64,000 nt of DNA from Xenophilus sp. AP218F (GTDB lineage Bacteria > Pseudomonadota > Gammaproteobacteria > Burkholderiales > Chromobacteriaceae): positions 124,459 to 188,458 of the forward strand of contig NJIE01000006.1 of assembly GCA_002213445.1 (NCBI GenBank), written 5' to 3'. The notes beneath the pieces were generated by a model. It did no database searches. It was not told where the DNA came from and saw nothing but the letters and a program-made list of their open reading frames with translations. Position numbers and translations under genes: made by a program. Numbering within the stretch: position 1 is the first letter of the stretch; each line of letters begins with the position of its first letter. Shown here in pieces: positions 38,803-47,290 of the stretch.

Positions 38803-40182
38803 TCAAGAAAGATTTTCCGATTCGACTTTCTGTTCGAACTCGCGCATGCAACGCGCGGCCACCGCCAGCATCTCGTCGATGTCGTCCTTGCTGATGACCA
38901 GCGGCGGAGCCGCGACGATATGATCGCCGCAGGCGCGCATGATCAGATTGTTGCGGAAGAAGATATCGCGGCACACCAGGCCGACCTCGCCGAAATTCGG
39001 GAACAGCTCGCGGGTCTCCTTGTTCTTCACCAGCGTGAAAGCCTGGATCAGGCCGACGCCGCGCACGTCGTCCACATGCTTGAACTGGCTGAAGGTTTCG
39101 CGCCAGCGCTGCTGCATGTAGGGGCCGATGTCGCGCTTGACCTGCTCCACGATGCCCTCGTCGCGCAAGGCCAGCACATTGGCGCGCGCCACTGCGGCGC
39201 ACACCGGGTGGCCGGAGTAGGTAAAACCGTGGTTGAAGTCGCCGGCGGCGATCAGCCCCTTGGCCACGCGCTCGCCGACAAAGACCGCGCCCATCGGCAG
39301 ATAACCGGAAGACAGCCCCTTGGCGGTGGTGAACATGTCAGGCTTGAAGCCGAAGTGCTGATGGCCGAACCATTCGCCGGTGCGCCCGAAGCCGCAAATC
39401 ACTTCGTCCGCCACCAGCAGCACATCGTATTTGCGGCAGATGCGCTCCACTTCCGGCCAGTAAGTGGCCGGCGGAATGATGACGCCGCCGGCGCCCTGAA
39501 TCGGCTCGCCGACGAACGCCGCCACCTTGTCCGCGCCGATCTCCAGGATTTTCTCTTCCAGCCAGCGCGCCGCGGCCAAACCGAACTCGTCGCGGCTCAT
39601 GTCCTTGCCGTGCTTATACCACCACGGCTGCTCCACGTGCGCCATGCCCGGAATCGGCAAATCGCCTTGCTCGTGCATGTACTTCATGCCGCCCAGGCTC
39701 GCGCCGCCTATGGTGGAGCCGTGATAGCCGTTCCAGCGTCCGATCAGCGTCTTTTTCTCCGGCTTGCCCTGGGCGTCCCAGTAACGGCGCACCATGCGGA
39801 TCATGGTATCCACGGACTCCGAGCCGGAGTTGGTGTAGAACACGTGCTCAAAACCGGCCGGGGTGACTTCGGCCAGCAAGGCGGACAGTTCCACCACCGC
39901 GGGGTGGGTGGTTTTGAAAAAGGTGTTGTAGAACGGCAGCTCCTCCATCTGGCGGCGCGCCACTTCGGCGAAATCCTTGCGACCGTATCCGACATTGACG
40001 CACCACAGGCCGGCCATGCCGTCGATGATCTTGTTGCCTTCGGAGTCCCACAGGTACATCCCCTCGCCGCGCGTCATGATCCGCGCGCCCTGGTGGTTCA
40101 GCGACGCGGTGTCGGTAAACGGATGCAGGTGATGCGCGGCATCCAGTTCGCGCCATTCGCTGGTGGTACGTTGCTTCTGCAT
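38803..40182 (-). CDS. Pyruvate-dependent omega-transaminase (class III; CV2025/SpuC-like)
   Basis: A 459-aa PLP enzyme of the class III aminotransferases. The PLP lysine is K288 (TTAKGLSSGYLP), the substrate-site W60 and Y153 (RWNGYHGST) are present, and the metal-free DEVICGFGRTG signature lies at 259-269. Sequence and length match C. violaceum CV2025, an enzyme famous in biocatalysis for chiral amines, which uses pyruvate as amino acceptor. Its natural role is suggested by the locus: it is the last gene after ald, puuD and a PuuA-like ligase, so putrescine or gamma-glutamylputrescine is the likely donor, as with Pseudomonas SpuC. The ATG at 40182 has GGAGG eight bases upstream. An earlier in-frame start adds 11 residues but has no ribosome site. 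Confidence 0.93.
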   Translation of the reverse strand: MQKQRTTSEWRELDAAHHLHPFTDTASLNHQGARIMTRGEGMYLWDSEGNKIIDGMAGLWCVNVGYGRKDFAEVARRQMEELPFYNTFFKTTHPAVVELSALLAEVTPAGFEHVFYTNSGSESVDTMIRMVRRYWDAQGKPEKKTLIGRWNGYHGSTIGGASLGGMKYMHEQGDLPIPGMAHVEQPWWYKHGKDMSRDEFGLAAARWLEEKILEIGADKVAAFVGEPIQGAGGVIIPPATYWPEVERICRKYDVLLVADEVICGFGRTGEWFGHQHFGFKPDMFTTAKGLSSGYLPMGAVFVGERVAKGLIAAGDFNHGFTYSGHPVCAAVARANVLALRDEGIVEQVKRDIGPYMQQRWRETFSQFKHVDDVRGVGLIQAFTLVKNKETRELFPNFGEVGLVCRDIFFRNNLIMRACGDHIVAAPPLVISKDDIDEMLAVAARCMREFEQKVESENLS

Positions 40183-40297
40183 ATGACTTCCTCCCGGTTG
40201 TTCGATAGCGGGCAAACCGCCCGGCTTCGCGCTTGGCGTGTTGTTCTATTGCTGGGTCCTGTCCATCCGGCCGCCGGGCATGCCCGGCGGCGCGCCA

Positions 40298-41632
40298 TCA
40301 CACGTGCAGCAGCAGGAACTTGCGCTCCCAGGGACTGATGACGCGGAAATACTCGGAAAATTCCTTCTCCTTCATGCCGACGTACATGCGCACGAAACGC
40401 TCGCCCAGCACTTCGGCCATTTCGGAACACTCCGCCAGCCTGACCAGCGACTCCTCGGAGCTGTTGGGGAACTGGTAAGGCAGCTCGTAAGCGTCGGTCT
40501 GGCGCGGCTCGGACGGCCTGAGCTTGTTGATGATGCCCAGATAGCCGCAAGCCAGCGTGGCCGCCATGGCGATATAGGGGTTGACGTCCACCCCCGGCAC
40601 CCGGTTCTCCACTCGCCTCGCCGGCGGCGAAGAATGCGGCACGCGCAGGCCGACGGTGCGGTTGTCGTAACCCCATTCGACATTGGTCGGCGCGGCGGTG
40701 TAGCGCGACAAACGACGGAATGAGTTCACGTAGGGCGCGAACAGCGGCATGGTTTGCGGAATGTACTTCTGCAAACCGGCGATGAAGTGGAAGAACAGAT
40801 CGGAGGGGCTGCCGTCGTCATTGGTGAACACATTGCGGCCGGTATTTCGGTCCACCAGGCTCTGGTGCATGTGCATGGCGCTGCCCGGCTCGTTTTCCAT
40901 CGGCTTGGCCATGAAGGTGGCGTACATGCTGTGGCGGAACGCCGCTTCGCGCACGGTGCGCTTGAACAGGAAGACCTGATCGGCGAGGTCCAGCGGGTTG
41001 CCGTGCAGGAAGTTGATCTCCATCTGCGCGGTGCCCACTTCGTGAATCAGCGTGTCCACTTCCAGATTCTGCGCATGGCAGTAATCGTAGATGTCTTCGA
41101 ACAGCGGGTCGAACTCGTTGACGGCGTCGATGGAGTAGGAGCGGCGGCCGAATTCGGCGCGGCCGGTGCGGCCGACCGGCGCGGCCAGCGGGATGTCCGG
41201 ATCGGGATTGGGCGACAGCAGGTAGAACTCCATCTCCGGCGCCAGCACCGGCTCGATGCCCATCTCGTCGTACAGTTTCAGGACGCGCTTGAGCACATTG
41301 CGCGGGGCCACATCCACCGGCGTGCCGTCGGCGCGATGGCAGTCGTAGATCAGCTGCGCGGTCGGGTCCACCGCCCAGGGCACGAAGCGCAAGGTGTTGG
41401 GGTCCGGCGCCAGCACCATGTCCGGATCGGTCAGGTCCAGCATGCTGTCGTCGGGGTAGTCGCCGGTGACGGTTTGCATCAGCACGGCTTCCGGCAACCG
41501 CATTTCCGGGTCGGAAACAAACTTGTCCTTGGGCACGATCTTGCCGCGCGCCACCCCCGTCATATCCGGAACGATGCACTCCACTTCGGTGATGCGATGT
41601 TCTCGCAACCATTCGTTGATTTGGTGATTCAT
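40298..41632 (-). CDS. puuA: Glutamine synthetase family protein, gamma-glutamylpolyamine synthetase (PuuA/SpuI-like)
   Basis: A 444-aa type of glutamine synthetase fold that activates glutamate with ATP and couples it to an amine. Family blocks are VECIVPDMTGVARGKIVPKDKF near the start, LAPEMEFYLL (metal ligand E), HEVGTAQMEINFLHGNPLDLADQVFLFKR, ATFMAKPMENEPGSAMHMHQSL (H-x-H, ATP and glutamate site), and SRYTAAPTNVEWGYDNRTVGLRVP. These are the PuuA/SpuI branch, not housekeeping GlnA (no adenylylation tyrosine loop). ATG 41632 has GAGGAAAGC upstream. Downstream is the transaminase and upstream puuD, giving the pathway context. Substrate could be putrescine, cadaverine or another diamine. Confidence 0.88.
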   Translation of the reverse strand: MNHQINEWLREHRITEVECIVPDMTGVARGKIVPKDKFVSDPEMRLPEAVLMQTVTGDYPDDSMLDLTDPDMVLAPDPNTLRFVPWAVDPTAQLIYDCHRADGTPVDVAPRNVLKRVLKLYDEMGIEPVLAPEMEFYLLSPNPDPDIPLAAPVGRTGRAEFGRRSYSIDAVNEFDPLFEDIYDYCHAQNLEVDTLIHEVGTAQMEINFLHGNPLDLADQVFLFKRTVREAAFRHSMYATFMAKPMENEPGSAMHMHQSLVDRNTGRNVFTNDDGSPSDLFFHFIAGLQKYIPQTMPLFAPYVNSFRRLSRYTAAPTNVEWGYDNRTVGLRVPHSSPPARRVENRVPGVDVNPYIAMAATLACGYLGIINKLRPSEPRQTDAYELPYQFPNSSEESLVRLAECSEMAEVLGERFVRMYVGMKEKEFSEYFRVISPWERKFLLLHV

Positions 41633-41767
41633 AAAGCTTTCCTCTGTTAGCTCCCCGGCCGTGATACCGGCTCTGAAACCGGGAGGTGCTGCTTTACCGC
41701 CACTGCAACGTCGCCCCGTCGCGCGCGAAGATTGAAGATACGGCGCGCCGGAACGGAAACCGCCAAG

Positions 41768-42520
41768 TTATCCCCGCGCGCGCCTCCTTGCGCGACAAGC
41801 GTCGCCAAAAGCGTTGAAGATGGCCTGCGAAACCGGATTTTCCCAATAGCGCCACTCCGGATGCCATTGCACGGCAAAGGCGAAGCTCTTGGCGTCGCGC
41901 ACCCGGTAAGCCTCGATCAACCCGTCCTCGGCCGTCGCCTCGCGCTCCAGACAGTCGGCCAGGCGACGTATGCCCTGCTGGTGCAGCGAATTCACCTTGG
42001 CGCGGGTCTCGCCGGTCCAGGACGCCAGCAGGCCGCCTGGCGCGAAGTCCACGTGGTGCGACAGCTGATACATCTCGTCCATGCTCTCGCTCTTGACCTC
42101 GCGGTGATCGCGCAGCCCCGGCTGCTCCTGCACGTGCTGATGCAGCTCGCCGCCGAGGGCCACGTTGATTTCCTGGAACCCCCTGCAAATGCCGAGCAAG
42201 GGGATGCCCGCGTCCACCAGCATGCGGATCAGCGGCAAGGTGGTGGCGTCGCGCTGCGGGTCGTGCAGGGTGCCGGGCCGGCTGGGCTCGCCGTTGTAGT
42301 GGTGAGGCTCGACGTTGGACGGCGAGCCGGGCAGCAGGATGCCGTCCACCATGTTCAGCACCTCGAGAAGGTGGGCGTGATTCCCCATCGCCGGAATCAG
42401 CAGCGGCAGGCCGCCGGCGCCGCCGGCGGCGGCCGTGATGTATTTCTCGCCCACCACGTGAAACGGTTGCGGGCCGATCGGCTTGATGTCGCAGGGAATG
42501 CCGATGATCGGGGGCTGCAT
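41768..42520 (-). CDS. puuD: Gamma-glutamyl-gamma-aminobutyrate hydrolase (PuuD), class I amidotransferase fold
   Basis: A 250-aa peptidase C26 protein that splits gamma-Glu-GABA to glutamate and GABA, the last step of the Puu pathway. The nucleophile is C112 in PLLGICRGFQEINVALGG, and the catalytic pair H220-x-E222 is in FAVQWHPEW. Other family blocks are IGIPCDI, GEKYITAA, DGILLPGSPSNVEPHHY and EVKSESMDEMYQLSHHV. The start at 42520 (MQPPIIGIPCD) has CGGAGAACC upstream; the frame is open further but overlaps ald. It lies 17 bases after ald. The next gene (PuuA-like) starts 135 bases later, so a second promoter or processing is possible. Confidence 0.92.
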   Translation of the reverse strand: MQPPIIGIPCDIKPIGPQPFHVVGEKYITAAAGGAGGLPLLIPAMGNHAHLLEVLNMVDGILLPGSPSNVEPHHYNGEPSRPGTLHDPQRDATTLPLIRMLVDAGIPLLGICRGFQEINVALGGELHQHVQEQPGLRDHREVKSESMDEMYQLSHHVDFAPGGLLASWTGETRAKVNSLHQQGIRRLADCLEREATAEDGLIEAYRVRDAKSFAFAVQWHPEWRYWENPVSQAIFNAFGDACRARRRARG

Positions 42521-42537
42521 AGGGTTCTCCGGAAGAG

Positions 42538-43665
<1,128 letters not shown>

Positions 43666-43750
43666 GATTGTCTCCCTCTGGTTATTTTGAACAGCCGCAT
43701 GGACAGCATCCGTTTAAGAAAATTCACAAGACACTTGCTCCATGCCACTG

Positions 43751-43797
43751 ATTCTGGCTATAAACCCTCATCCTTGCAAAGATATTTGATTTTGCAA
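43751..43797 (-). promoter_or_regulatory. Candidate ald promoter and operator
   Basis: TTGCAA (43779-43774) and CAGAAT (43756-43751) on the minus strand are 17 bases apart. The -35 is one arm of the perfect inverted repeat TTGCAAA-N10-TTTGCAA (43774-43797). A PuuR-like repressor gene starts 82 bases away, on the other side, so it is the natural candidate to bind. Confidence 0.5.
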
Positions 43798-43878
43798 CGC
43801 AGCAAGCACCGATCGAAACTGCCGCCGCGCAGTACTCAGGTTGTCTAAAATTATTAACATATTGATGGAGCAGGACAA

Positions 43879-44424
43879 ATGGACGTTGGGGCAAGATTGA
43901 GAATGGTGAGGACCCGCTTCGGGCTGTCGCAAAGAGAGCTGGCCAAACGCGCCGGCGTCACCAACGGCACCATTTCGCTGATCGAGCAGAACCGGGTCAG
44001 CCCCTCGGTCAGTTCGCTGAAAAAAGTGCTGGAGGGCCTGCCCATCACGCTGGCCGAATTTTTCACCTTCGACGCCGACCCCGAACAGCCGCGCGTGTTC
44101 TACAAGGCCGAAGAGCTTCCCAATCTCGGCAACGCCCAGATCAACCTGCTGCTGGTGGGCACGGCGCACGACAAGCGCGACATCGCCATCTTGCGCGAGC
44201 TGTACCAGCCGGGCGCCGACACCGGCCCGGACATGCTGGAACACGAGGGGCAGGAAGGCGGCGTCGTCATCCGCGGCCAGATCGAGATCACCGTCAACAA
44301 CGAAAGCAGAATCCTGGGGCCGGGCGACGCCTATTACTTTGAAAGCCGGCTGCCGCATCGCTTCCGCAACGTGGGCGAGGAGGTGTGCGAGATGGTCAGC
44401 GCCAGCTCGCCTCCTACATTCTGA
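43879..44424 (+). CDS. puuR: XRE-cupin regulator, PuuR-like
   Basis: A 181-aa repressor with an N-terminal lambda-type HTH (MDVGARLRMVRTRFGLSQRELAKRAGVTNGTISLIEQNRVSPSVSSLKKVLEGL, residues 1-54) and a C-terminal cupin (residues 105-178: YQPGADTGPDMLEHEGQEGGVVIRGQIEITVNNESRILGPGDAYYFESRLPHRFRNVGEE). This is the architecture and length of E. coli PuuR (185 aa), which represses puu genes and is released by putrescine. It is divergent from ald. GGAGCAGGACAA precedes the ATG. Orientation suggests the repressor controls both arms and itself. Other MmsR/AlkR-type cupin regulators have similar build, but the gene neighbours support PuuR. Confidence 0.88.
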   Translation: MDVGARLRMVRTRFGLSQRELAKRAGVTNGTISLIEQNRVSPSVSSLKKVLEGLPITLAEFFTFDADPEQPRVFYKAEELPNLGNAQINLLLVGTAHDKRDIAILRELYQPGADTGPDMLEHEGQEGGVVIRGQIEITVNNESRILGPGDAYYFESRLPHRFRNVGEEVCEMVSASSPPTF

Positions 44425-44452
44425 CACCGGCATCCTTAAGGGGGAAATCGGC

Positions 44453-44845
44453 ATGAAACTGGGTTACACCATTGTTTACGTTCCGGACGTCGCCGCCTCG
44501 CTGCGCTTTTTCGGCGAAGCCTTCGGCCTGGCGCAACGATTCATCGATGAATCGGGCCAGTATGGCGAGCTGGAAACCGGCGATACCACGCTGTCCTTCG
44601 CCTGCCACGCCCTGGCCGAGAGCAACCTGCCTGCCGGCTATGTGCGCGCCAGCGACGCGAAGCAGCCGCTGGGCATGGAAATCGGCCTGGTTTGCGACGA
44701 CGTGCCCGCCGCCCACGCCCGCGCGCTGGGTTGCGGCGCCCGCGAGCTGGCCGCGCCGAAGCGCAAGCCCTGGGGCCAGACCGTGTCCTACCTGCAAAGC
44801 CCGGACGGAACCCTGATCGAACTGTGCAGCCCGCACGCCGTCTGA
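44453..44845 (+). CDS. VOC-family protein in the polyamine locus
   Basis: A 130-aa glyoxalase/bleomycin-resistance fold protein. It begins MKLGYTIVYVPDVAASLRFFGEAFGLAQRFIDESGQYGELETGDTTLSFACH and ends SYLQSPDGTLIELCSP. Two beta-alpha-beta-beta-beta modules are visible. The usual first metal histidine is replaced (Y5-T6 in GYTIVYV), while E39 or H51 and the terminal E of LIELCS remain, so whether it binds metal is uncertain. A strong site AAGGGGGAAATC precedes the ATG. It lies between puuR and puuC (28 and 58 base gaps), so it is probably in the same transcript. I know no described role for a VOC protein in putrescine catabolism. Confidence 0.85.
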   Translation: MKLGYTIVYVPDVAASLRFFGEAFGLAQRFIDESGQYGELETGDTTLSFACHALAESNLPAGYVRASDAKQPLGMEIGLVCDDVPAAHARALGCGARELAAPKRKPWGQTVSYLQSPDGTLIELCSPHAV

Positions 44846-44903
44846 CAGACAACCAGCCTTCACCACTCGCAGCGCCACTTTGAAAAACAATGAGGAGAAC
44901 GCC

Positions 44904-46391
44904 ATGCCACGCAGCCACGCCGAATGGAAACAGCTTGCGACCCGGTTGAACATCGAGGGCCGCGCCTTCATCGCCGGACGCTACCGCGCCGCAGACAGCG
45001 GCAAGACCTTCCCCTGCGTCAATCCCGCCGACGGGGCCAAGCTGGCCGACGTGAGCTGGTGCGGCGAGGCCGAGGTGGATGAAGCGGTCAAGGCCGCCCG
45101 CGCCGCTTTCGAATCCGGCGTCTGGTCCGGGCTCGCGCCGCTGGCGCGCGGCCGCATTCTCAAGCGCTTCGCCGCGCTGATGCGCGAACACGCCGACGAG
45201 CTGGCCCTGCTGGAAACGCTGGACGCCGGCAAACCGATAGGCGACACCGCCAGCGTGGACGTCCCCGGCGCGGCGTATTGCGTGGAATGGTTCGCCGAAG
45301 CGATAGACAAGGTGGGCGGCGAAGTCGCGCCGGCGGACCCGAAAGTCGTCGGCCTCGTCACCCGCGAGGCCATCGGCGTGGTGGCCGCCGTGGTGCCGTG
45401 GAACTTCCCCATCCTGATGGCGAGCTGGAAGTTCGGCCCGGCGCTTGCCGCCGGCAACGCCGTCATCGTCAAGCCGTCGGAAAAATCGCCGCTCACCGCC
45501 ATCCGCGTCGCCCAGCTCGCCAAAGAGGCCGGCATTCCCGACGGCATCTTCCAGGTGCTGCCCGGCGCGGGCGACGTCGGCAAGCTGCTGGCGCTGCACA
45601 TGGACATCGACTGCATCGCCTTCACCGGCTCCACCGCGGTCGGCAAGCTGATCGCCGGCTACGCGGCCGAATCCAACCTCAAGCGCGTCTGGCTGGAGCT
45701 GGGCGGCAAGTCGCCCAACATCATCCTGCCGGACTGCCCGGACCTGGCCCGCGCCGCGCGCGCCGCCGCCGGGGCCATCTTCTACAACATGGGCGAAATG
45801 TGCACCGCCGGCTCGCGCGTGCTGGTGCACCGCGACATCAAGGCGCGCTTCCTCGCCGAGCTGCGCCAGGCGGCCGAGGCCTACTACCCCAACGACCCGC
45901 TGGACCCGAATACCAGCATGGGCGCCATCGTCGACGGCATCCAGCACCAGAAGGTGATGTCCTATATCGACAAGGGGCTGAGCGAAGGCGCCGAGTTGCT
46001 GATCGGCGGCAAGGCCGCCCATCCCGGGCAAGGCCTGTTCATCGAACCGACGATCTTCGACTGCCCGCGCCACGATCTCGCCATCTGCCGCGAGGAGATC
46101 TTCGGCCCGGTGTTGTCGGTCATCACCTTCGACGACGTCGAGGAAGCCGTCCGCATCGCCAACGATAGCGAATACGGCCTGGCCGCCGCGGTCTGGACCG
46201 GCAACGTCTCCACCGCGCACCAGGTGGCTCGCCGCCTGCGCGCCGGCACGGTATGGGTGAATTGCTACGACGAAGGCGGCGACATGAACTTCCCCTTCGG
46301 CGGTTTCAAGCAATCCGGCAACGGCCGCGACAAATCGCTGCACGCGCTGGAAAAATACACGGAACTGAAAAGCACCCTGATCAAGCTGTAA
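44904..46391 (+). CDS. puuC: Gamma-glutamyl-gamma-aminobutyraldehyde dehydrogenase (PuuC)
   Basis: A 495-aa NAD(P)-dependent aldehyde dehydrogenase, the same length as E. coli PuuC. The catalytic cysteine is C300 (YNMGEMCTAGSRVLV), the general base E265 (LELGGKSPN), and VVPWNFPILM and FTGSTAVGK define the cofactor site. The late motif EEIFGPVLSVITFD and the ending GNGRDKSLHALEKYTELKSTLIKL are typical of PuuC. The start at 44904 (MPRSHAEWKQLAT) has GAGGAGAACGCC; a TTG eight codons before it is unlikely. It oxidises the aldehyde made by the transaminase to a gamma-glutamyl-GABA, the PuuD substrate. Betaine aldehyde dehydrogenases are similar but the context decides. Confidence 0.92.
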   Translation: MPRSHAEWKQLATRLNIEGRAFIAGRYRAADSGKTFPCVNPADGAKLADVSWCGEAEVDEAVKAARAAFESGVWSGLAPLARGRILKRFAALMREHADELALLETLDAGKPIGDTASVDVPGAAYCVEWFAEAIDKVGGEVAPADPKVVGLVTREAIGVVAAVVPWNFPILMASWKFGPALAAGNAVIVKPSEKSPLTAIRVAQLAKEAGIPDGIFQVLPGAGDVGKLLALHMDIDCIAFTGSTAVGKLIAGYAAESNLKRVWLELGGKSPNIILPDCPDLARAARAAAGAIFYNMGEMCTAGSRVLVHRDIKARFLAELRQAAEAYYPNDPLDPNTSMGAIVDGIQHQKVMSYIDKGLSEGAELLIGGKAAHPGQGLFIEPTIFDCPRHDLAICREEIFGPVLSVITFDDVEEAVRIANDSEYGLAAAVWTGNVSTAHQVARRLRAGTVWVNCYDEGGDMNFPFGGFKQSGNGRDKSLHALEKYTELKSTLIKL

Positions 46392-46486
46392 ACCCGACGA
46401 TGCCGGCCGCGCCCCGCGGCCGGCGCTCCCGCTGCCCGCCAAGCTTGCCTATAGTGAAGCGAACCTTGGCCAATTCGGGATACACC

Positions 46487-47290
46487 ATGAAACACGCCTT
46501 CTTGTCCGGCCTTTGCCTGCTGCTCGCCATGACGCAGACTAGCGTCGCCGCCCCCAATCCCGCCTGCCCCAACGGACCGCTCAAGATCGGCTACTACGAA
46601 TTCGGCGTCGCCTACCGCGACGGCAAGGGCTATGACGTGGATCTGGCCCATGAGCTCGCCCGCCGCCTGGGTTGCCCCATCGCCAGCGAAGCGCTGTTCC
46701 CGCGCATCCGCGTGCTCAAGCTGCTGGAATCTGGCGGCGTGGATATCGGCACCTCCACCATCCCCTCGCCGGAACGCAAGGCCTACGCCTGGATTTATCC
46801 TTACAACTACAGCAAGAACATGGTGCTGCTCTACAGCACGGTGAAAGCCCGCACCCTGGCGGATTTGCCCAAGGACCCGGCGCTGCGCTGGGGCGTCATC
46901 CGCGGCTATCGCCATAGCCCGGAACAGGACACGTTCCTTGCGCGGCTGGCGCGCGACAATCGCACCGTCGTCGCCGACGACGAGGACGATCTGTACCGGA
47001 TGCTGCGCAGCGGCGTCATCACCGCCGCGTTCGCCCACCCGCTGAGCTACGATCGCTGGATGAACACGCCGGCCTTCCAGCGTCACGTGATCCAGCTTGA
47101 CCTGTTTCCGGATTCGGAGGCTGTAGCCGGCGGCTTCGTGCTCAGCAAGAAGCGCTTCAGCGAGCAAAGCGCCGAACTGTGGCATGCCGAACTGCTGAAA
47201 ATGTACCAGGACGGCACGCTGCGCAGCCTGTTCCGGCGCTACCTGAGCGAGGACGCCACCCGCCGCATCATGCAAATCCCGATACAATAG
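46487..47290 (+). CDS. Periplasmic solute-binding protein, family 3 (amino-acid type)
   Basis: A 267-aa exported protein with signal peptide MKHAFLSGLCLLLAMTQTSVAAP. The mature part shows the SBP_bac_3 fold: LKIGYYEFGVAYRDGKGYDVDLAHELARRLGCPI, ILKLLESGGVDIGTSTIPSPERKAYAWIYPYNYSKNMVLLYS, and WGVIRGYRHSPEQDTFLARLA. No ABC permease or ATPase is beside it, so it may serve a transporter elsewhere, or be an orphan sensor. The position after puuC raises the possibility of polyamine or GABA binding, but PotF-type proteins are of a different family and the 95-base gap does not prove co-transcription. Confidence 0.82.
   Translation: MKHAFLSGLCLLLAMTQTSVAAPNPACPNGPLKIGYYEFGVAYRDGKGYDVDLAHELARRLGCPIASEALFPRIRVLKLLESGGVDIGTSTIPSPERKAYAWIYPYNYSKNMVLLYSTVKARTLADLPKDPALRWGVIRGYRHSPEQDTFLARLARDNRTVVADDEDDLYRMLRSGVITAAFAHPLSYDRWMNTPAFQRHVIQLDLFPDSEAVAGGFVLSKKRFSEQSAELWHAELLKMYQDGTLRSLFRRYLSEDATRRIMQIPIQ

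Follow-up and report, generated by a model that had tools for sequence, protein, structure and literature searches.

Does a class III transaminase, paired with alanine dehydrogenase (Ald), take the place of the FAD-dependent oxidase PuuB in the polyamine-degradation locus of Xenophilus sp. AP218F? The locus lies on contig NJIE01000006.1 within the window, by which we mean the whole stretch of 64,000 nucleotides that was analysed (Table 1), and an earlier note, made from the sequence alone, had proposed that it does. Our analysis points to another answer: the locus is quite probably the family's version of the Pseudomonas spuABC genes, with ald placed first and with a PuuR/PauR-like regulator gene and a PuuC-like gene at its flank, and it would work in parallel with a PuuB-like route encoded elsewhere. 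It is related to a known polyamine-catabolic gene set and differs from it by the addition of an alanine-recycling enzyme; it is not a pathway that has been replaced.

The gene content and strands described in the earlier note are borne out by the layout of open reading frames and by profile matches. Transcription on the minus strand runs from ald through the puuD-like gene and the gene for a glutamine-synthetase-like (GS-like) ligase to the transaminase gene, so that ald is the first gene of the operon, 8 bases before puuD. The note was also right that the window holds no FAD-dependent PuuB: the PF01266 profile detects no FAD oxidase inside the window, and the only one of its 22 matches in this genome that falls there is the nucleotide-binding motif of ald. 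The whole-genome search for puuB that the note had called for, made with the E. coli Puu reference sequences from NC_000913 (PuuB, 426 residues), found two PuuB-like genes, on contigs here called C20 and C21. Their products are 61% (C20, over 423 aa) and 47% (C21, over 422 aa) identical to E. coli PuuB; they are PuuB-type by sequence, with a putative activity on gamma-glutamylputrescine. Both genes are unlinked to the transaminase locus, and the one on C21 lies directly behind a gene for a potG-like ATPase. The absence of PuuB from the genome was accordingly rejected, and the step that had been thought absent is encoded.

A survey of 61 genomes of the family extends this result. A PuuB-like oxidase (E <= 1e-20) is present in 58 of them, a strong transaminase match in 60, and a single Ald match in 60, Ald being matched in two pieces in the remaining genome, G044. 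With adjacency counted by hand as location on the same contig and within about 5 kb, ald adjoins the transaminase gene in 48 genomes, and does so in at least one genome of nine of the 10 genera; the 13 non-adjacent genomes are nine of genus g2, both of g4, G057, where the two genes are on different contigs, and G025, where a 4473-base contig ends inside the GS-like gene and adjacency cannot be judged. A PuuB-like oxidase is encoded by 45 of the 48 adjacent genomes, in 34 of them of the C20 type (at least 67% identical to the protein of C20, counting the split match of G044). We therefore rejected the idea that adjacency of ald and transaminase goes with loss of PuuB; in most genomes of the family the transaminase and the oxidase are companions. 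No PuuB-like match was obtained in G038 and G040 (both 100% complete) or in G046 (84%), with the C20 protein as the only query and at E <= 1e-20. The transaminase locus is intact in G038 and G040, and in these two genomes replacement of PuuB could be true.

Two further observations were made among these genomes. The split ald match of G044 (G044:C3:2805832-2806952; 80% complete genome) consists of two overlapping pieces and is probably due to a frameshift or an assembly error. Contig C1 of G005 (L189) encodes a further transaminase (57%); its neighbour is a PuuC-like gene, and a PuuB-like gene (67%) lies some 11 kb away.

The gene arrangement was compared in the best 80 loci among 253 relatives found when named genomes were searched with the transaminase. 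The order puuC-puuR-ald-puuD-GS-transaminase occurs in 21 of these 80, and because it recurs to this extent the arrangement is not due to chance. The 21 loci come from Chromobacterium, Vogesella, Pseudogulbenkiania, Paludibacterium, Craterilacuibacter and one 'Neisseriaceae bacterium', genera that we take to belong to the family Chromobacteriaceae. Another 23 loci, labelled Pseudomonas or Gammaproteobacteria, have puuD-GS-transaminase and a divergent PuuA-like gene without ald; their transaminases are 57-61% identical, and a transporter ATPase match lies downstream in 22. In 29 Rhizobium-type loci the genes found, of those searched, are the divergent PuuA-like gene and the transaminase gene, with a potG-like match as well in four. 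The remaining seven (L063, L064, L082, L083, L087, L104 and L118) are otherwise arranged: L063 has the transaminase and a PuuB-like gene in one cluster, and L118, from Henriciella, has transaminase, aldehyde dehydrogenase, one further open reading frame and ald on one strand.

What sets the locus apart is that ald stands first, with a conserved box in front of it. If spuA corresponds to the puuD-like gene and spuB to the GS-like gene, as we presume, the likeness to Pseudomonas lies in the succession of puuD-like, GS-like and class III transaminase genes on one strand. This core order has been published as spuABC (PMC10606097), and an XRE-cupin regulator is described for spuABCDEFGH-spuI of P. 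aeruginosa too, where PauR controls spuABCDEFGH (PMC7901475). The window locus lacks the transporter genes found behind spuC in Pseudomonas and the divergent PuuA-like gene found there; instead, it has ald in front and the regulator and PuuC-like genes adjacent. The E. coli puu operon (puuA, puuD, puuR, puuC, puuB, puuE) shares homologues of PuuA, PuuD, PuuR and PuuC with the window locus, but it contains puuB, while the PuuB-like genes of this genome are unlinked and the locus has the transaminase and ald instead. Among the titles, abstract openings and passages covered, we found no description of ald in a spu-type operon, which is weak evidence given that the literature searched was mostly outside subscription journals.

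The ald-puuR gap contains two boxes, O1 and O2, about 130 bases apart. Among 22 aligned loci, O1 is recognisable with at most two differences in all 22, and O2 with at most three differences in 21, the exception being L054. A search pattern built from both boxes, with up to two mismatches, has eight matches in this genome against none for the reversed pattern; O1 and O2 are matches by construction. Two of the eight are upstream of a potF-like/potH-like pair and one is upstream of the potG-PuuB-like pair on C21. We also derived a weight matrix from 13 different words, leaving out a spurious word from L054. With this matrix, 13 of the 14 relatives whose stretch includes the potG start have a box of 21.2-26.3 bits ahead of potG-PuuB-like (the same count with the L054 word; L177-L182 lack that start and were excluded), and these upstream stretches hold no second word of 12 bits or more. 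The one relative without the box, L169, has a potG that is just 69% identical and may represent another operon. On this evidence the candidate regulon of the transaminase operon probably includes at least one PuuB-like oxidase.

For the C20 gene the indications are fainter. In 310 kb of this genome, which is not a random sample because four of its stretches were chosen for holding boxes, nine words reach 18 bits, compared with one in total for five column-shuffled matrices, and the ninth and weakest (18.5 bits) stands just before the C20 PuuB-like gene (L037 8947-8964). Among 21 stretches upstream of C20-type genes, from this genome and 20 relatives chosen from 42 (L194-L213), nine have a word of at least 15 bits and two have nothing; with column-shuffled matrices the number was between 0 and 5 of 21, in most cases 0. 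A related palindromic word immediately precedes the C20-type gene in many relatives, which is suggestive only of control by the same or a related regulator, so that perhaps both PuuB-like oxidases are in the candidate regulon.

The identity of the transaminase is clear from close matches. From the ATG that gives MQKQRTTS it has 459 residues, and its top four sequences in the PDB (6s4g, 7q9x, 4a6r and 6snu) match over nearly the whole length at 981-986 bits. The sequence of 4a6r, which we take to be CV2025 of C. violaceum, scores 982 bits over 458 residues and is identical to those of 4a6t and 4a6u. The latter two are named as C. violaceum transaminase (PMC6308316). The NF005682 model gives 778.7 bits, above its cut-off of 510, and Trp60, the catalytic Lys288 and Arg416 are retained. 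The enzyme is of the CV2025/SpuC class III type, and a diamine:pyruvate activity would be expected from the literature on its relatives. SpuC uses pyruvate and yields alanine, and it is described as acting on both putrescine and gamma-glutamylputrescine (PMC10606097). TR2 is one match of the window transaminase; TR2-type relatives accept putrescine as amine donor in vitro, none of the 10 enzymes tested converted gamma-aminobutyrate (GABA), and transaminase neighbourhoods with a gamma-glutamylputrescine-oxidoreductase-like oxidase are known (PMC6328768). The suggestion that the locus offers a native role for CV2025-type enzymes therefore holds in that a polyamine role fits, and gives way on novelty, such a role having already been published for relatives (PMC6308316, PMC10606097, PMC6328768).

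The other products are assigned with differing firmness. The ald product clears a curated NCBIfam cut-off (TIGR00518, 531.5 against 391.85 bits) and is an alanine dehydrogenase by that model, its direction in the pathway being presumably deaminating. The GS-like protein misses both the gamma-glutamylputrescine synthetase model (188.1 against 650 bits) and GlnA (241.2 against 429.15 bits). It is 35% identical to E. coli PuuA and 57-59% identical to the GS-like gene product of the Pseudomonas spu-type loci; the corresponding identities to E. coli proteins are 40% for the PuuD-like, 37% for the regulator (PuuR) and 54% for the PuuC-like protein.

How the locus might work can be outlined as follows, with substrates, the direction of Ald, repressor binding and flux predicted from sequence. 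A polyamine would relieve repression at the two conserved boxes. Putrescine or a similar diamine, and possibly gamma-glutamylputrescine as well, would donate an amino group to pyruvate in the transaminase reaction, which would yield alanine and an aminoaldehyde. The aldehyde would be oxidised by the PuuC-like enzyme, and Ald would convert alanine to pyruvate, ammonium and NADH. This route would run parallel to the PuuB-like oxidase route, at least one operon of which has a box of the same kind. As to the amine, the sequence does not decide between free putrescine and its gamma-glutamyl form.

The earlier note's pairing of transaminase and Ald as a pyruvate-recycling couple is therefore kept as a prediction, favoured by the order in 21 of 80 loci, the box before ald and the grouping of transaminase, aldehyde dehydrogenase and ald in Henriciella; its extension to a functional replacement of PuuB, on gamma-glutamylputrescine or putrescine, now appears very improbable. 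Two PuuB-like oxidases in the genome, the C21 gene behind a matching box, an oxidase in 45 of the 48 genomes in which ald and transaminase adjoin, and transaminase and PuuB-like genes within one cluster in G033 and L063 speak against replacement. The lack of an oxidase in the window and the genomes G038 and G040, rated 100% complete, which keep the locus and gave no match to the C20 protein at E <= 1e-20, speak for it. Also in its favour, disruption of four transaminases together in P. putida abolishes growth on hexamethylenediamine although puuB is induced (PMC11879879). By analogy, a SpuC-type enzyme can be the essential step even beside PuuB, and this result suggests that the transaminase route carries a large share. 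The parallel-route reading also has a narrower form, a possibility that we take seriously without favouring it, namely that the transaminase acts on free putrescine only, while the ligase and hydrolase serve the PuuB branch under a shared regulator. The acceptance of putrescine by TR2-type relatives, the lack of GABA conversion by any of the ten enzymes tested (PMC6328768), and the box before a PuuB-like gene would agree with it. However, the ligase and hydrolase genes directly precede the transaminase gene in 21 + 23 of the 80 loci, which suggests common substrates, and SpuC takes the gamma-glutamylated form as well as putrescine (PMC10606097). Finally, Ald might act mainly in the aminating direction or in general alanine nutrition, its position being unrelated to the transaminase. 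This would fit its occurrence as one match in 60 of 61 genomes, its separation from the transaminase in nine of 10 g2 genomes, and G033, where ald is with puuD-GS; we consider it unlikely, because ald is beside the transaminase gene in nine of 10 genera (at least one genome each) and is preceded by a conserved box in the loci aligned, and because of the Henriciella grouping.

Several observations weigh against our preferred reading, that of a spuABC-type operon with ald working beside PuuB. The curated cut-offs are missed by the puuD-like (185.8 against 266 bits), puuR-like (155.4 against 211) and puuC-like (630.4 against 850) products, so that these names are at the level of homology only. 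There are seven class III aminotransferase matches in this genome, and two DadA-type dehydrogenases that could in principle remove alanine. Nor is ald obligatory in the operon: in genus g2 it is beside the transaminase gene in one of 10 genomes; three of the others carry the two genes on one contig with more than 130 kb between them, and six carry them on different contigs. In G005, the genome of that genus whose loci were inspected, the boxes stay before puuD-GS-transaminase and ald is elsewhere without other searched genes. Contig C1 of G033 has two puuD-GS copies (L190 and L193), one in a cluster with the transaminase, potG-like, PuuB-like and PuuE-like genes, and the other accompanied by ald and a MotA-like gene, without a transaminase; because ald sits here with puuD-GS while the transaminase gene is elsewhere, its partner may not be the transaminase alone. 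With regard to the boxes, three of the eight pattern matches (C16, C41 and C42) have no recognised polyamine-like neighbours among the open reading frame starts listed and yet score as high as many others (21.8-23.6 bits), the reversed control pattern also matches in other genomes, among the matches listed, and the potG box is about 340 bases from the likely start codon, which is far for a simple operator.

There are precedents for the pairing itself. Bilophila wadsworthia has a pyruvate-using taurine transaminase and a pyruvate-regenerating Ald in one inducible cluster; the substrate there is taurine, and the portion of the report available mentions no gamma-glutamylation genes (PMC8667426). 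In engineered P. putida, Cv-ATA (CV2025) has been combined with Ald of Bacillus subtilis, the same kind of enzyme pair, but that pair is artificial, runs in the aminating direction and takes its Ald from another species (PMC8601178). In the window locus, an enzyme closely related to CV2025, a widely used biocatalyst, is encoded in a polyamine operon beside its own alanine dehydrogenase, and this natural pairing is the one that engineers assemble artificially. Genomes with ald inside or outside the operon, and with or without a PuuB-like oxidase, offer a natural comparison for why two deamination routes persist.

PuuB uses oxygen, and by inference a transaminase-Ald route would suit low oxygen. 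A bolder proposal, which we regard as doubtful, is that transaminase and Ald together form an oxygen-independent, hydrogen-peroxide-free equivalent of a polyamine dehydrogenase, yielding NADH and ammonium, behind a box of the kind that the PuuB-like branch has and usable with or without oxygen, and that in G038 and G040 they are the sole deamination route, PuuB being truly replaced there.

Table 1. Features of the polyamine locus, in window coordinates
Feature	Position	Strand	Length	Basis
Transaminase, class III amine:pyruvate, CV2025/SpuC type	38803..40182	-	459 aa	PDB matches, NF005682, key residues
GS-like ligase, SpuB/PuuA-like, probable gamma-glutamylpolyamine synthetase	40298..41632	-		PF00120, 348.7 bits
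PuuD/SpuA-like gamma-glutamyl hydrolase	41768..42529	-		PF07722, 243.3 bits
Alanine dehydrogenase (ald)	42538..43665	-		TIGR00518, 531.5 bits; PDB alanine dehydrogenases
Box O2, TGTGAATTTTCTTAAAC, upstream of ald	43712..43728	-		Aligned loci
Box O1, TGTTAATAATTTTAGAC, next to puuR start	43843..43859	-		Aligned loci
XRE-cupin regulator, PuuR/PauR-like	43879..44424	+		HTH_3 and Cupin_2
VOC/glyoxalase-like protein	44453..44845	+		PF00903
PuuC-like aldehyde dehydrogenase	44904..46391	+		PF00171, 560 bits

The surroundings of the operon can be described briefly. Downstream of the transaminase gene there is a 13-pair terminator-like stem and a MotA-like gene, with no transporter genes, and the puuR- and puuC-like genes are divergent; the pot-like genes of this genome are outside the locus, on C4 and C21. 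Promoter and terminator scans gave match numbers at chance level. The VOC gene is an optional insertion between puuR and puuC, because besides the window it is matched in just four of the 21 family loci (L043, L044, L046 and L050; E <= 1e-15).

Elsewhere in this genome, the two DadA-type enzymes were considered as polyamine oxidases and rejected, since both pass the curated cut-off for D-amino acid dehydrogenase; one of them adjoins an open reading frame that, by eye, resembles alanine racemase at its start. On C41 (L032 7237-9864; G000:C41), a paralogue that shares 64% identity with the GS-like ligase of the window lies next to an opposite-strand agmatine-deiminase-like gene that is below the curated aguA cut-off, and this may be a second polyamine ligase locus. 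There is a further GS-like paralogue on C16. After puuC, the window has a gene for a family-3 solute-binding-like protein (46475-47290), and in the Chromobacterium loci L043-L050, L061 and L084 two or three tandem relatives of it follow puuC (L043 1069-2813).

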